A stretch of DNA of 64,000 nt from Rhodopseudomonas sp. BR0M22. GTDB lineage: Bacteria > Pseudomonadota > Alphaproteobacteria > Rhizobiales > Xanthobacteraceae. The stretch's first letter is position 1. Each line of letters begins with the position of its first letter. This document shows, in pieces, positions 27,501-38,678 of this stretch. A model generated the notes under the pieces. The model ran no database searches. It saw nothing but the letters and a program-made list of their open reading frames with translations, and was not told the origin of the DNA. The translations under genes and the position numbers were made by a program. The stretch covers positions 1 through 64,000 of the forward strand of contig NZ_QUMK01000012.1 of the NCBI RefSeq assembly GCF_010907035.1, written 5' to 3'.

Positions 27501-27522
27501 CCTCGCATTGCAGGAGATCACC

Positions 27523-28908
27523 ATGGACCAGTCGAACCGCTACGCCAATCTCAACCTCAAAGAGAGCGAGCTGATCGCGGGCGGACGGCATGTGCTGTGC
27601 GCCTACATCATGAAGCCGAAGCCCGGCTTCGGCAATTTCATCCAGACCGCCGCGCACTTCGCCGCCGAATCCTCGACCGGCACCAACGTCGAAGTCTCGA
27701 CCACCGATGACTTCACTCGCGGCGTCGACGCGCTGGTGTACGAGGTCGACGAGGCCAACAGCCTGATGAAGATCGCGTATCCGATCGAATTGTTCGATCG
27801 CAACGTGATCGACGGCCGCGCCATGATCGCCTCGTTCCTGACCCTGACGATCGGCAACAACCAGGGCATGGGCGACGTCGAATACGCCAAGATGTACGAT
27901 TTCTACGTGCCGCCGGCTTACTTGAAGCTGTTCGACGGCCCGTCGACGACCATCAAGGATCTGTGGCGCGTGCTTGGCCGCCCCGTCGTCAACGGCGGCT
28001 TCATCGTCGGCACCATCATCAAGCCGAAGCTCGGCCTGCGTCCGCAGCCGTTCGCCAATGCCTGCTACGATTTCTGGCTGGGCGGCGACTTCATCAAGAA
28101 CGACGAGCCGCAGGGCAACCAGGTGTTCGCTCCGTTCAAGGACACGGTGCGGGCGGTCGCCGACGCGATGCGCCGGGCGCAGGACAAGACCGGCGAGGCC
28201 AAGCTGTTCTCGTTCAACATCACCGCCGACGATCACTACGAGATGCTGGCGCGCGGTGAGTTCATCCTCGAGACCTTCGCCGACAACGCCGACCATATCG
28301 CGTTCCTGGTCGACGGCTACGTCGCCGGCCCGGCTGCGGTGACCACCGCCCGCCGCGCGTTCCCGAAGCAGTACCTGCACTACCATCGCGCCGGTCATGG
28401 CGCTGTGACCTCGCCGCAGTCCAAGCGCGGCTACACCGCCTTCGTGCTGTCGAAGATGGCACGCCTGCAGGGCGCGTCGGGCATCCACACCGGCACCATG
28501 GGCTTCGGCAAGATGGAAGGTGAAGCCGCTGACCGCGCGATCGCCTACATGATCACCGAGGATTCGGCCGATGGTCCGTACTTCCACCAGGAGTGGCTCG
28601 GCCTCAACCCGACCACCCCGATCATCTCCGGCGGCATGAACGCGCTGCGGATGCCGGGCTTCTTCGACAACCTCGGCCACTCCAACCTGATCATGACGGC
28701 GGGTGGCGGTGCGTTCGGTCATATCGACGGCGGTGCGGCGGGTGCCAAGTCGCTGAGGCAGGCCGAGCAGTGCTGGAAGCAGGGCGCCGATCCGGTCGAA
28801 TTCGCCAAGGATCACCGCGAATTCGCCCGCGCGTTCGAGAGCTTCCCGCAGGATGCCGACAAGCTGTATCCGAACTGGCGCGCCAAGCTGAAGCCGCAGG
28901 CGGCCTGA
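27523..28908 (+). CDS. cbbM: Ribulose-bisphosphate carboxylase, form II
   Basis: 461 residues from ATG 27523, with AGGAG 7 nt upstream. Catalytic landmarks: Lys167 in [12 protein letters not shown], the carbamylated Lys192 in [14 protein letters not shown], and [16 protein letters not shown]. Only a large subunit is present, as expected for the form II L2-type enzyme, which has low CO2/O2 discrimination. In phototrophs it serves redox balancing as well as CO2 fixation. It is the last gene of cbbFPTAM and is followed by a terminator. Confidence 0.97.
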
Positions 28909-31767: not shown

Positions 31768-32155
31768 GGCGCTTTCCGGTCGAGGCTGCGATCACGGCTT
31801 GTGATACGGCCGTGGGCAGGTCGGAGGTCTTCCCGATCCTGCTTCGATTTTCGGGCGAGGCGTTGGCCAAAGCCTTAACGGCGGACGTGCCGCCTGTTCC
31901 GGTCATGCTCCATGGTTTACGGATCTCAGCGCCCTCTCGCGCTCGGCGTTGCACTCGGATCGGGCATGCGGATTGCTTTCTCGTCTCCAGATTGGATTCG
32001 GTCGAAGCAGCCCTTGATTTTGTGCCAAATCAAACCAATTTCCGGCGCCTTCTTGTTAGATGCGAATTGATAGCGCCTGTTACAATCGTTCTAAACTTCC
32101 GACGGCGCCGGCTCGAATCTCTTGACCTTAGCGGCCCCGATTGGAACAACGAGCA
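31768..32155. other. Region between the small membrane protein and feoA
   Basis: 388 bp with no gene I can support. It holds the upstream region of feoAB including a perfect 7-bp-arm palindrome at 32014-32033. No NifA/sigma-54 pair was found here. Confidence 0.5.
32014..32033. promoter_or_regulatory. Palindrome upstream of feoAB
   Basis: TTGATTT-TGTGCC-AAATCAA, perfect 7-bp arms with a 6-bp spacer, 122 bp before feoA. The half sites resemble FNR/FixK halves (TTGAT/ATCAA), but the spacing is 10 rather than 4 bp between the core pentamers, so it is not a standard FNR box. An iron or redox regulator is plausible. Confidence 0.45.
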
Positions 32156-32446
32156 ATGACCCAAAACCCCCATCACAACGGCCACAGCCTTCACCAGCCG
32201 ATCCTGCTGGGGAACGCGCGACGGGGCTATCGCGGCGTGGTTCAGGCGATCGATCCGCATCGCGGAACCTCGTCACTGCAGCCGGTCGAGTTGGAGAGCC
32301 GCCTGATCGAACTCGGGTTCGTCGAGGGGGCCAAGGTCGAAGTGCTGCACGAGGGGATCATCGGCCGGGACCCGATCGCGGTTCGAGTCGACAACATCAC
32401 CATCGCGGTTCGCCGTCGCGAGGCGATGGCCATCGTGCTGATGTGA
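32156..32446 (+). CDS. feoA: Ferrous iron transport protein A
   Basis: 96 residues from ATG 32156. A small SH3-like FeoA domain spans residues 20-96 (LIELGFVEGAKVEVLHEG, then DNITIAVRRREAMAIVL). FeoA is a cytoplasmic partner needed for full FeoB activity. It is directly followed by feoB after 37 bp. Placement next to nifA suggests provision of Fe(II) under the anoxic conditions in which nitrogenase is made. Confidence 0.9.
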   Translation: MTQNPHHNGHSLHQPILLGNARRGYRGVVQAIDPHRGTSSLQPVELESRLIELGFVEGAKVEVLHEGIIGRDPIAVRVDNITIAVRRREAMAIVLM

Positions 32447-32483
32447 CGCGCGGATTGCAGTTTCTTGATTTGGCGATTGCGCG

Positions 32484-34364
32484 ATGAGCTCGGTCGAATC
32501 CCATCCTTTCAACCTCGCTTTGGTTGGAACGCCCAATAGCGGCAAAACCTCGCTGTTCAACGCTCTGACGGGCAGTCGCCAAAAGGTGGCGAACTACCCG
32601 GGCGTGACGGTCGAACGCAAGACCGGCCTGTTCACCACGCCGGGCGGCCGCGTCGTCAGCCTGGTCGATCTGCCTGGGACCTATTCGTTGCGTGGCCGGA
32701 GCCCCGACGAGGAGATCACCCGCGATGTCGTGCTCGGCCGCAAATCGGGCGAGCCGGTGCCGGATCTGGTGCTGTGTGTCGCCGACTCCACCAATCTGCG
32801 GCTGACCTTCCGGCTGATGCTTGAATTGAAGGCCACCGGCCGGCCGCTGATGCTCGTGCTCAACATGTACGACATCGCGATGCGCCGCGGTGTCACTGTC
32901 GATGTCGAGAAGCTGTCGGCGCAGCTGGGTGTTCCGGTCGTTACGTCGATCGCCGTCCGCAAGGGCGGCACCGCCGAACTTTTGAAGCGGACCGATGAAT
33001 TCGCCGCCCAGGCGACGTCCCCCGCCGCCAGCGACCACTGGCGACCGCTCTCGACCAGCGAACTGCGCGCGCTGCAGCGCGAGGCCGATCGCATCATTGC
33101 CGATTGCGTCAGCCTGCCGGCGCGCCCCCACACCCTGACCGCTCAGGTCGACCGGGTGGTGCTGCATCCCGTGGCGGGCCTGGTGATCTTGGTCCTGCTC
33201 CTGTTCCTGATGTTCCAGGCCGTGTTCTCCTGGGCACAGCCGGTCATGGAACTGATCTCCGGAGCGTTCGAAGCGCTCGGCGCTTTCGTGCAGGCCAACA
33301 TGCCCGAAGGGCTGCTGCAGAGCTTTCTGCAGAACGGCGTGATCTCGGGCGTCGGCAGCGTCCTTGTGTTCCTGCCGCAGATCATCATCATCTTCCTGTT
33401 CATTCTGCTGCTGGAAGATCTCGGCTACATGGCGCGCGCTGCGTTCCTGATGGACCGCATTATGGGCGGGGCCGGGCTGCACGGCCGCGCCTTTATTCCG
33501 CTGCTGTCGAGCTTTGCCTGCGCCATCCCGGGCATCATGGCGACGCGGGTGATCGACAACAAACGCGATCGCCTCACCACCATCCTGATCGCGCCGCTGA
33601 TGACCTGTTCGGCGCGGATCCCGGTCTATACGCTGATCATCTCGGCCTTCGTGCCCGCGAAGGAAGTGTTTGGCTGGATCAATCTGCAGGGGCTGGTGAT
33701 GTTCGGCCTCTACACCGCGGGCATCGTCAGCGCGCTGACCGTGTCGGCGCTGGTCAAGTTCTTCATGTGGCGCGACTACGAGCCGGCGCCGTTCATGCTC
33801 GAACTGCCGGACTACAAGCTGCCGCGGCTGAAGAGCGTCGGGATCGGGATCTACATCCGCGCCACGATGTTCCTGCAGCGCGCCGGCACCACGATCTTCT
33901 CGATGATGGTGCTGATCTGGTTCCTGGCCTCGTTCCCGCGCCCGCCGGCCGGGGCGACCGAGCCGGCGATCGATTTCAGTCTGGCGTCGATCATTGGCCA
34001 CGCGATAGAGCCGGTGCTGGCGCCGCTCGGCTTCAACTGGCAGATCGGGGTGGCGTTGATCCCCGGCATGGCGGCGCGCGAAGTCGCAGTCGCGGCGCTC
34101 GGCACCGTCTATGCGATCGAAGGCGGCAAGGAAGCGGCCGAGCAGATCGGCCAGGTGCTGGCCTCGAAGTGGAGCCTGGCGACCGCGCTGTCGCTGTTGG
34201 CCTGGTTCGTGTTCGCCCCGCAATGCGCTTCGACGCTCGCGGTGATCAAGCGCGAGACAGGAAGCTGGGGCTGGATGGGCGTCACCTTCATCTACATGTT
34301 CGCGCTCGCCTACATCGCCAGCCTGATCACCTACAATGTCGCGGTGGCGTTCGGCGCCGGCTGA
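32484..34364 (+). CDS. feoB: Ferrous iron transporter B
   Basis: 626 residues. The N-terminal G domain has G1 GTPNSGKTSLFN, G3 DLPGTYSL and G4 NMYD, followed by a short helical spacer and a C-terminal membrane domain with two Gate motifs (for example MARAAFLMDRIMGGAGLHGR with SCAR-like MTCSARIP). It is shorter than E. coli FeoB (about 770) because the spacer and C-terminal cytoplasmic tail are reduced. It drives Fe2+ uptake across the inner membrane. No feoC follows; a repeat hairpin at 34512-34528 separates it from the convergent gene. Confidence 0.94.
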   Translation: MSSVESHPFNLALVGTPNSGKTSLFNALTGSRQKVANYPGVTVERKTGLFTTPGGRVVSLVDLPGTYSLRGRSPDEEITRDVVLGRKSGEPVPDLVLCVADSTNLRLTFRLMLELKATGRPLMLVLNMYDIAMRRGVTVDVEKLSAQLGVPVVTSIAVRKGGTAELLKRTDEFAAQATSPAASDHWRPLSTSELRALQREADRIIADCVSLPARPHTLTAQVDRVVLHPVAGLVILVLLLFLMFQAVFSWAQPVMELISGAFEALGAFVQANMPEGLLQSFLQNGVISGVGSVLVFLPQIIIIFLFILLLEDLGYMARAAFLMDRIMGGAGLHGRAFIPLLSSFACAIPGIMATRVIDNKRDRLTTILIAPLMTCSARIPVYTLIISAFVPAKEVFGWINLQGLVMFGLYTAGIVSALTVSALVKFFMWRDYEPAPFMLELPDYKLPRLKSVGIGIYIRATMFLQRAGTTIFSMMVLIWFLASFPRPPAGATEPAIDFSLASIIGHAIEPVLAPLGFNWQIGVALIPGMAAREVAVAALGTVYAIEGGKEAAEQIGQVLASKWSLATALSLLAWFVFAPQCASTLAVIKRETGSWGWMGVTFIYMFALAYIASLITYNVAVAFGAG

Positions 34365-34602: not shown

Positions 34603-35457
34603 TCAGAACGCCGCAAGCGGCTGGATCGCGTAGCTGGGCCGCTGCTCCGCCTGTGGCTGCACCGCCCGCAGCACCGCCTTGGCAATGCCCCGGCCGCGGT
34701 CGTCGATCCCGGTCCATTGCGCCTGCCGGCCCCGGGAGTCGACTTCCATCAGCTTGACGCCCTGCGGCACGTCCTGACCATCGCGAACCACGCCGCGCAG
34801 AACGCCGTCACAGGGCGCGCGCACCGGAACGCCGCCCAGGTGGCCGACAGGGAAGCCGCTGAACACCCGGCTGCCGATCTCGACCGCGGTTCTCCATTTG
34901 CCGCTGGCCTGCGAATACTGAAAGCGCTCGGCACCAATGCCGCCGAGCGGGCTGGCGACGCCGTCGGCCGCGTCGGTCCAGCCCGCACCGACGATCAGAC
35001 CGCTGCGGCCGGGCCGCGTCTCGATCGCGACATCGCAATTTGCCGACGTCGAAAACCCCGGGCCGAGTCCGACGCTGACGCGCGCCAGCCGCCGCAGGTC
35101 CGGGGTGACGCGATGCTTCTGCATCCGGGCGTCGACCAGAATGTCGATCGTGCCGACAGGCAGCAGATCGGGTAGTGCCAGCCATGTCACCAGCACGCTG
35201 TCGGACCGCCTCAGCGCCTTGAAAATCTCGGTGCCTTCGTCGACGCGGGTGCCGCGTACACCCTCGACCATCACCTCGTCGCCGTACAGAGCGTCGTGAA
35301 ACGCCATCTTGCGGCGGATCACCGGCGGGAACGGATCGTGGGACATCACCACACAGCAGCCGGCACCATGCAGATGAACGGCAACGGCCGAGGCGATCTC
35401 GTTGGTCCCGAGCACGACCGCGAAGCCGCCGGGGCTGAGTTGGTGAGGCTGAGTCAT
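34603..35457 (-). CDS. YqeB/EF2563-type molybdenum hydroxylase accessory protein (XdhC-related)
   Basis: 284 residues from ATG 35457. The N-terminus is Rossmann-like (VVLGTNEIASAVAVHL), followed by VIRRKMAFHDALYGDEV, then GLGPGFSTSANCDVAIETRPG and a C-terminal GVPVRAPCDGVLRGVVRDG, colinear with the EF2563/YqeB family placed in 'selenium-dependent molybdenum hydroxylase' maturation. The usual GGGDIATG is altered to LGTNEIAS. No Se-dependent hydroxylase is nearby; the molybdenum hydroxylase of this window is 30 kb away. A sigma-54-like promoter (35495-35510) and a NifA site (35596-35611) face it, so a role in nitrogenase-linked molybdenum or redox metabolism is likely (inference). The cargo is unknown. 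Confidence 0.82.
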   Translation of the reverse strand: MTQPHQLSPGGFAVVLGTNEIASAVAVHLHGAGCCVVMSHDPFPPVIRRKMAFHDALYGDEVMVEGVRGTRVDEGTEIFKALRRSDSVLVTWLALPDLLPVGTIDILVDARMQKHRVTPDLRRLARVSVGLGPGFSTSANCDVAIETRPGRSGLIVGAGWTDAADGVASPLGGIGAERFQYSQASGKWRTAVEIGSRVFSGFPVGHLGGVPVRAPCDGVLRGVVRDGQDVPQGVKLMEVDSRGRQAQWTGIDDRGRGIAKAVLRAVQPQAEQRPSYAIQPLAAF

Positions 35458-35494
35458 TATCACCACGCTGTGTTCAGTGTCTGAACTAGCCTTA

Positions 35495-35510
35495 AGCAAG
35501 AGCCGGACCA
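35495..35510 (-). promoter_or_regulatory. Sigma-54-like -24/-12 promoter facing the YqeB-like gene
   Basis: On the minus strand it reads TGGTCC-GGCTC-TTGCT: the invariant GG and GC are spaced 10 bp apart, and the -12 element is perfect. The -12 end is 38 bp upstream of the start codon. The NifA site at 35596-35611 is 86 bp upstream of it, a normal activator distance. Confidence 0.6.
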
Positions 35511-35595
35511 GACCTGCTGGTGATTGTTGGTGGTATCTTGATATCGCTTTTGATGTCGGAAAGCGGACGTTGTGTCGTGTGCGATGCTGCGCCGG

Positions 35596-35611
35596 TGTCG
35601 CTCTGATGACA
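35596..35611. promoter_or_regulatory. NifA upstream activator sequence (shared, divergent)
   Basis: TGT-CGCTCTGATG-ACA fits the NifA site TGT-N10-ACA. It lies between two oppositely facing -24/-12 elements: 86 bp from the minus one and 52 bp from the plus one. A near match TGT-N10-ACG occurs around 35552. The motif alone is not rare; the paired promoters give it weight. Confidence 0.65.
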
Positions 35612-35662
35612 TCCTTTGGCAACAACAGTCGGTTTGGCGGCCGGAATCCGACGAAAGTCGCT

Positions 35663-35678
35663 TGGCCCGGTTCATGCA
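35663..35678 (+). promoter_or_regulatory. Sigma-54-like -24/-12 promoter facing the SDR gene
   Basis: TGGCCC-GGTTC-ATGCA: GG and GC at the correct 10-bp spacing, with one mismatch in each element relative to TGGCAC-N5-TTGCA. It lies 36 bp before the chosen GTG start. Confidence 0.6.
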
Positions 35679-35713
35679 AGTTCGCTGGCAATGAAACCGA
35701 TGGAGACCGTGCC

Positions 35714-36613
35714 GTGCATTCTGAACCCCTGCACGCCGAGCGTCCCGACCCCGCACCGACATCGACACCGCAGCAAGCCCGTCCGGCCGACATGCCACCC
35801 GGCATGCCGGCAGGGATGCCGTCGGCCGCTGGCGGCGCCTGTCCGTTTCACAATGACCAGCGCGAGGCGCGCACCGGCAAGCAGAAAACGCTGGTGCTGA
35901 CCGGCGCGTCGCGTGGCATCGGGCATGCGACCGGCAAGCTGTTCTCCGACGCCGGCTGGCGGATCATTACCTGCTCCCGGCAGCCGTTCGCCGACGACCG
36001 CTGCCCGTGGGCAACGGGCCTCGAGAATCACGTCGCGGTCGAACTCGCAGACCATCGCGCGGTGCCCCGGGCCATCGACGAGTTGAAAGAGAAGCTTGGC
36101 GGTGGGCCGCTCAACGCCCTGATCAACAACGCGGCGATTTCGCCGAAGAGCGCGGAAGGCGAGCGTTTGACGTCGCTGAACACGCCGGTCGCAACCTGGA
36201 TGAGCGTGTTCCACGTCAATCTGCTGGCGCCGGTGATGCTGGCGCAGGGGCTGTTCGATGAGCTGCGAGCCGGCCAGGGTTCGATCGTCAACGTCACCTC
36301 GATCGTCGGTTCGCGGGTCCATCCGTTCGCAGGCAGCGCCTACGCCACCTCGAAGGCGGCACTGACCTGTCTCACTCGGGAGATGGCGCACGACTATGCG
36401 CCCTACGGTATCCGGGTGAATGCGATCGCGCCTGGCGAGATCAAGACCGATATCTTGTCTCCCGAGACTGAAGCGATGCTGGCGCCGACAATTCCGATGC
36501 GACGTATCGGGACACCGGACGAAGTCGCCAAAGTGATGTTCTTCTTGTGCTCCGAGGCAGCCAGTTACGTCACTGGCGAAGAAATACACATCAATGGCGG
36601 TCAGCACGTCTGA
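35714..36613 (+). CDS. SDR-family oxidoreductase with proline-rich N-terminal extension
   Basis: About 299 residues from GTG 35714 (GGAG upstream). The first 55 or so residues are a low-complexity extension rich in Pro, Ala and Met (PPGMPAGMPS) ending in ACPFHN. The classical SDR fold follows: TGASRGIG cofactor motif, NNAAIS, and catalytic YATSKAA, plus the Ser-containing strand NVTSIVGS and the C-terminal INGGQHV. A basic residue after TGAS suggests NADP(H). The substrate is unknown. It is driven by a probable NifA/sigma-54 promoter and precedes nifA on the same strand, so it belongs to the nitrogen-fixation regulon by context. Confidence 0.85.
   Translation: MHSEPLHAERPDPAPTSTPQQARPADMPPGMPAGMPSAAGGACPFHNDQREARTGKQKTLVLTGASRGIGHATGKLFSDAGWRIITCSRQPFADDRCPWATGLENHVAVELADHRAVPRAIDELKEKLGGGPLNALINNAAISPKSAEGERLTSLNTPVATWMSVFHVNLLAPVMLAQGLFDELRAGQGSIVNVTSIVGSRVHPFAGSAYATSKAALTCLTREMAHDYAPYGIRVNAIAPGEIKTDILSPETEAMLAPTIPMRRIGTPDEVAKVMFFLCSEAASYVTGEEIHINGGQHV

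Positions 36614-36923: not shown

Positions 36924-38678
<1,755 letters not shown>

Follow-up and report, generated by a model that had tools for sequence, protein, structure and literature searches.

The window, the whole stretch of DNA analysed here, comprises 64,000 nucleotides of Rhodopseudomonas sp. BR0M22 (contig NZ_QUMK01000012.1, positions 1 to 64,000). In it, the gene of a YqeB-like protein, hereafter X, is divergent from an SDR-family gene that is followed by nifA:

34603–35457, minus strand: X, YqeB-like protein of 284 aa, nif-linked subfamily (open reading frame with an inner ATG start at 35457; TIGR03309, 162.1 bits)
35714–36613, plus strand: fixR, SDR-family protein (adh_short_C2, 4.5e-50; start at GTG 35714 or ATG 35792)
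36924–38678, plus strand: nifA, downstream of fixR (TIGR01817, 766 bits compared with a cut-off of 529)

The SDR gene lies immediately 5' of nifA on the same strand, which is the fixR-nifA arrangement, and it is therefore the FixR gene of a fixR-nifA unit. An initial reading of this DNA from its letters (the sequence-only reading) had placed it correctly in the SDR family but had missed its identity as FixR, with nifA next to it. In relatives, fixR is likewise divergent from X, usually with nifA next. Beyond nifA, profile typing identified nifB, nifT, nifH, nifD, nifE, nifN, nifV and nifW, every one above cut-off, and feoB is the convergent neighbour of X on the side away from fixR. The nif island is flanked directly by a RubisCO large-subunit gene (27508–28908, assigned by eye) and by feoAB (32141–34364). 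The fixR-nifA operon has been known in Bradyrhizobium since 1987 (Thony 1987; Bauer 1998); a single transcript was reported for fixR and nifA in B. japonicum, and in strain DOA9 fixR was described as preceded by putative boxes for NifA and RpoN. The present locus shares with that operon the SDR gene followed by nifA and, as in DOA9, NifA/RpoN boxes 5' of fixR, but it differs by a divergent X promoter with a common upstream activating sequence (UAS), which is absent from the accessible parts of the operon's descriptions.

The region between X and fixR contains the following elements:

35495–35510, minus strand: –24/–12 sigma-54 promoter of X (TGGTCCGGCTCTTGCT), from a motif scan and conservation; its DOA9 counterpart appears in a 2026 paper
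35555–35569, no strand assigned: conserved element CGT-N4-TT-N5-C between the UAS and the X promoter (columns at least 95% conserved in 36 aligned regions)
35596–35611, no strand assigned: single NifA UAS, TGT-N10-ACA, between both promoters, from a motif search
35663–35678, plus strand: –24/–12 sigma-54 promoter of fixR (TGGCCCGGTTCATGCA), from a motif scan and conservation

The exact NifA site and the two GG-N10-GC elements of opposite orientation that the sequence-only reading had reported were thus all recovered, each GG-N10-GC element being one mismatch away from TGGC-N7-TTGCW. Both promoters had been said to end 36–38 bp from their start codons; this is correct for X (38 bp), and holds for fixR (36 bp) only if translation starts at GTG 35714, ATG 35792 being also possible.

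A UAS by itself carries little weight: 12 occur in the window, where 5.8 are expected and 1 of 100 shuffles reaches 12, and a UAS is present by chance in 3–9% of shuffled intergenic regions. The region was compared with 35 other fixR-X regions from Rhodopseudomonas and Bradyrhizobium contigs (36 in total), locus L127 being left out because its fixR is not divergent. Exactly one UAS was found in all 36 regions, and a UAS with both promoters at working spacing in 35 of them; the last one (L071) has all of these sites too, with a fixR promoter whose score of 8 falls one point short of the threshold. The UAS with both promoters was obtained in none of 3000 dinucleotide shuffles for each of four regions tested, including this one. 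Therefore, the whole layout is not the product of chance. Conservation across the 36 aligned regions forms islands at both promoters, at the UAS and at the element 35555–35569. By eye, this element contains no NifA, FNR or clear RegR site; it was considered as a RegR box, also by eye, and support for this failed across loci. NifA/sigma-54 regulation of X, as predicted from the control signals at both genes, is well supported.

TIGR03309, the YqeB equivalog model, is the sole NCBIfam match of X, and the only NCBIfam model matched by each of the 51 members of alignment A2, which comprises X of the window and 50 proteins from the best 80 of 172 relatives. Homology extends over profile positions 2–253 of 256, but the score of 162.1 bits is below the curated cut-off of 220. 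In the bacterial family of this strain, 42 genomes matched the model: 38 have X, two have a true YqeB (G038 and G049, the only genomes in which the cut-off was attained, by proteins other than X) and two weak matches were not counted (G021 and G105); G018, where X is present only in pieces, is included among the 38. In a midpoint-rooted tree of 58 proteins, a branch with support of 100/100 divided six YqeBs (annotated, or over the cut-off) from the remaining 52 proteins; those linked to nif grouped together as a set of 49 with 100/98. The selD gene was over its cut-off in none of seven genomes of the genus, including that of BR0M22; across the family it was present in 20 of 38 X genomes vs 52 of 111 others (p = 0.58), and absent from the remaining 18 X genomes. 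No match to the XdhC Pfam domains was found at E ≤ 1 in the 51 members, and the genome carries a separate XdhC_C gene. A selenium reading of X was rejected on the selD counts and the separate clade, and membership of XdhC on the Pfam result and the separate XdhC_C gene.

By its sequence, X is a relative of YqeB that lies outside the selenium-linked YqeB equivalog, to which it had initially been assigned: this assignment was not upheld by the score (162 vs 220 bits), by the clade of its own or by the seven selD-less genomes of the genus. Haft and Self (2008), in the accessible part of their study, described a sharp fall of scores below the YqeB family to homologues that come largely from selD-less species, and X, being such a sub-cut-off homologue, fits that description. 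Compared with the proteins of TIGR03309 (EF2563, E. coli YqeB), X shares homology over nearly the whole profile and a biotin-carrier-like part, which was noted in C. difficile YqeB too; it differs in its score below the cut-off, its own clade, the lack of a selD link, and its link to NifA and nif. Two YqeB records inspected for contrast adjoin yqeC and mocA in one case, and yqeC and selD in the other.

The AlphaFold model of X (pLDDT 84.5) has a Rossmann-type N-terminal part, which matches SDR proteins with Z of about 9 over about 130–160 residues (rmsd 3–6), and a C-terminal biotinyl-like barrel, which matches BCCP with Z of about 10, aligned over residues 168–245. The best Foldseek match, EutE/DoeB, reached TM-scores of only 0.21–0.26, EutE being aligned over 75–79 residues within 44–245. 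None of the Foldseek matches listed covers X well, the fold matches being partial, and a sequence search of solved structures returned nothing reliable (one match, E 0.057). Residues N140 and C141 are unchanged in all 51 rows of the alignment. No lysine is present in any of the 51 rows at 203–211, where the hairpin was placed by eye, and K235 is the one common lysine within 168–245; apparently, the modelled barrel is devoid of the biotin lysine. Family matches of the X members include no significant DNA-binding domain.

In the 149 genomes of the family, X and nifD (over cut-off) were found together in 36, X only in 2, nifD only in 4 and neither in 107 (p = 1.3e-27, a value that ignores shared ancestry). 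Of the two genomes with X only, G114 has a nifD fragment, and G048 has nifA and a nifH fragment beside X; among the four of 40 nifD genomes without X, G105 keeps broken pieces of X and G148 is 58% complete. Agreement within genera, a partial remedy for ancestry-blind p-values, was 14 of 14 in genera g7, g26 and g43 (G114 being taken as nif by its fragment) and 8 of 12 in g10 and g25. Named contigs with X relatives include members of the Azospirillaceae, Methylocystaceae, Beijerinckiaceae, Acidocellaceae and Hyphomicrobiaceae, and in 48 named genomes that have no nifHDK near X, nifD was over cut-off in 41, with some match in 45 (L075 left out). A sample of the class was surveyed with TIGR03309, at most seven candidates being scored per genome, and its nine nif genomes that belong to other families were examined again with profile A1, which detected X in none of them. 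X is therefore an optional accessory and not a core nif gene; it tracks nitrogenase and is not required for nitrogen fixation as such.

The loci of the best 80 of 172 X relatives were analysed over stretches of up to 10 kb per side. A typed nif gene was present within the stretch in 55 of these 80 loci; a looser count gave 57 with nif markers, and the stricter one is used here. A UAS and a –24/–12 promoter precede X in 68 of the 80, compared with 20 of 771 control genes, a set without homologues of the window's named genes and without genes lying less than 1.5 kb from X. By locus class, among the same best 80 of 172, the promoter was present in all 35 fixR-linked loci, 11 of 19 nifH/D-linked loci, all 11 of the group with other nif genes (which also takes in bolA-only loci), 10 of 14 molybdenum-cluster loci and the single locus without markers. 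Away from fixR, the count was thus 33 of 45. The promoter accompanies X beyond the fixR loci, and NifA-type control is therefore a property of X itself and not a by-product of the fixR site. Recruitment of a YqeB-like protein to nitrogen fixation, as proposed in the sequence-only reading, agrees with these figures (36 of 38 X genomes with nifD; promoter in 68 of the best 80 of 172). The YqeB-SDR pair, whose conservation in other nif-bearing genomes had been suggested as a check, occurs in 35 of the best 80 of 172 loci and is lineage-specific, whereas X itself is more widely linked to nif. No such promoter was seen at X in 12 of the 80 best of 172 loci, including Nitrospirillum, Azospirillum B4 and Niveispirillum copies; the promoter-less copies, these among them, may be transcribed from upstream genes. 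A single-domain response regulator (L101, 7170–7601; cluster c7, 19 members) often diverges from nifH next to nif islands that carry X.

Among the best 80 of 172 loci, 25 lack a typed nif gene; a molybdenum-linked gene (ModD, ModE-type repressor, Mop, ModC-like TOBE or DUF2478) was found in 21 of these and 4 have neither, two loci with both nif and molybdenum genes being counted as nif. In the family, modD co-occurs with X in 34 of 38 X genomes and is found without X in five; in at least 16 of the 38, no more than 1.3 kb separates X from modD, and in nine of these both genes are on the same strand. ModD (TIGR01334) resembles X in being linked to nif and molybdenum, and it often adjoins X, but it has quinolinate phosphoribosyltransferase domains and is a distinct protein. 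ModE-type HTH, TOBE and Mop genes adjoin X in molybdenum-cluster loci, a ModE-type gene being near X in 13 of the best 80 of 172 loci. Two deeper relatives of X, in Thermomicrobium (L146) and Paraburkholderia (L142), lie inside ABC operons, the former annotated for molybdate transport and the latter without a named substrate, which suggests that the YqeB family has a branch linked to transport. The nif-type plasmid copies of Methylocella tundrae and Methylovirgula have no clear molybdenum gene nearby, and in Xanthobacter and relatives the neighbours of X are BolA, Grx4 and SufT. On another contig of the BR0M22 genome (L157, G000 C87:4706-6797), modD, a DUF2478-like gene and a nitrogenase-associated ArsC-like gene are clustered. 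In genome G089 (L136, L139), a broken second X (C1:2478793-2479497) is divergent from fixR; a full-length copy occurs elsewhere in this genome, with modD about 1 kb away.

In six Bradyrhizobium loci (L059, L063, L066, L070, L072 and L077), modD, not nifA, follows fixR. All six keep fixR, X, the UAS and both promoters, and their genomes all have nifD over cut-off elsewhere. The fixR-modD adjacency probably arose through loss of the intervening nif island, since L078 retains a cut-down nifA between fixR and modD. The dN/dS of X ranged from 0.10 to 0.22 in six pairs of the nifA-less group, compared with 0.09 to 0.14 in four pairs of nifA-linked strains. Because X, fixR and the promoters persist and dN/dS is similar, X appears to be maintained by selection away from local nif genes.

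We know of no function for FixR. An SDR with 58–67% identity to FixR is present in 41 of 42 nif or X genomes, and 21 of them add a closer copy (70–100%); this widespread SDR and the closer copies make FixR look like a nif-linked paralogue. G105 has a partial FixR copy at 78% identity, and the BR0M22 genome has, on another contig (G000 C126:32021-32758), a FixR-like SDR at 63%. FixR and ModD both appear in the differential protein/gene expression table of a B. diazoefficiens microoxia study, in its accessible part.

X is mostly found in nitrogen fixers, carries nitrogenase-type control signals and is often near molybdenum genes, and we therefore regard it as a NifA-regulated, diazotroph-linked relative of YqeB that probably handles molybdenum for nitrogenase. 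A molybdenum role had been suggested in the sequence-only reading, and is made plausible by the 21 of 25 loci without typed nif among the best 80 of 172. Under nitrogen-fixing conditions, NifA bound at the single UAS would activate its own fixR-nifA operon together with X. X would bind a molybdenum species or its carrier and hand it on, from uptake by the Mod system towards the assembly of FeMo-cofactor, working together with ModD and, in some lineages, with FixR; we infer binding and hand-over from context, fold and kin. A more specific scheme is put forward tentatively, and is doubtful as a whole: X, ModD and FixR (in Rhodopseudomonas and Bradyrhizobium) could form an unrecognised delivery path of molybdenum to nitrogenase, in which the barrel and the Asn-Cys pair would hold a molybdenum species or small carrier and FixR would be a reductase.

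Other explanations were considered. X could serve another need of nitrogenase, such as iron-sulfur supply, redox or oxygen protection, and be near molybdenum genes only because these are co-regulated with nif too. The BolA, Grx4 and SufT neighbours in Xanthobacter and relatives would fit iron-sulfur or redox work equally well, and AhpC/AhpD-like proteins (named by eye) lie between nifA and X in several genomes; we nevertheless consider this unlikely, given the molybdenum-linked genes in 21 of the 25 loci without typed nif (best 80 of 172), the molybdoenzyme or selenium genes that accompany the YqeB kin and the position of the Thermomicrobium relative within a molybdate operon. That X senses molybdenum and, with ModE or Mop, tunes transcription or transport rather than delivering the metal would account for the ModE-type HTH, TOBE and Mop genes beside it in molybdenum-cluster loci, but is improbable with a ModE-type gene near X in only 13 of the best 80 of 172 loci and family matches that include no significant DNA-binding domain.

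An ordinary YqeB or XdhC protein that matures a molybdenum hydroxylase, possibly a selenium-dependent one, is what the single NCBIfam match of all 51 members and the names given to X in records (xanthine dehydrogenase, XdhC/CoxF) would suggest. It is very improbable in view of the score of X, below a cut-off attained in only two genomes of the family and by other proteins there, and of the separate clade, the lack of a selD link, the 51 members free of XdhC Pfam matches and the distinct XdhC_C gene. Least credible is an X that has no nif role and is co-regulated merely through the fixR-nifA control region, as the single UAS common to X and fixR could indicate: it is already contradicted by the promoter that X has in 33 of the 45 loci not linked to fixR (best 80 of 172) and by the way X follows nif across genomes.

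To our knowledge, the route of molybdenum from molybdate uptake to FeMo-cofactor is only partly known. X is a concrete candidate for this gap, being conserved, NifA-controlled, linked to diazotrophs and often in molybdenum clusters when away from nif; entries labelled 'xanthine dehydrogenase' conceal it. The transfer of nitrogen fixation to new hosts is another area in which X may be relevant, metal supply being one need. No description of the diazotroph-linked X subfamily with its molybdenum context was found in the open-access literature, and in the literature on RPA4631-RPA4635, which covers the ferredoxin RPA4631 and a nif range ending at RPA4633, X was not found. None of the terms looked for occurs in the mLife 2026 paper on FixLJ.

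The initial claim that the pair had not been described as a nif system was not supported, as fixR has been known since 1987, NifA sites were predicted at fixR and xdhC in 2016 and the DOA9 orthologue of X was listed in 2026. Tsoy 2016 (PMC4999443) predicted conserved NifA sites upstream of fixR and 'xdhC', as found here, and stated that the link of xdhC to nitrogen fixation was unknown; the accessible text differs from the present work in treating xdhC without subfamily, molybdenum context or co-occurrence. We infer that this xdhC is X because all three nif-type plasmid matches are named 'xanthine dehydrogenase'. In the accessible part of the 2026 DOA9 paper, the X orthologue BDOA9_RS30985 ('xdhC/coxF') is listed among the likely targets of RpoN, and its RpoNc site, TGGCCCGGCTCTTGC, is placed at –60; such sites are said to correspond closely to transcriptome-defined genes, and a strong drop of modABC and modD is reported in rpoN mutants. 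The promoter site of locus L076 and its distance are identical to those printed for BDOA9_RS30985.
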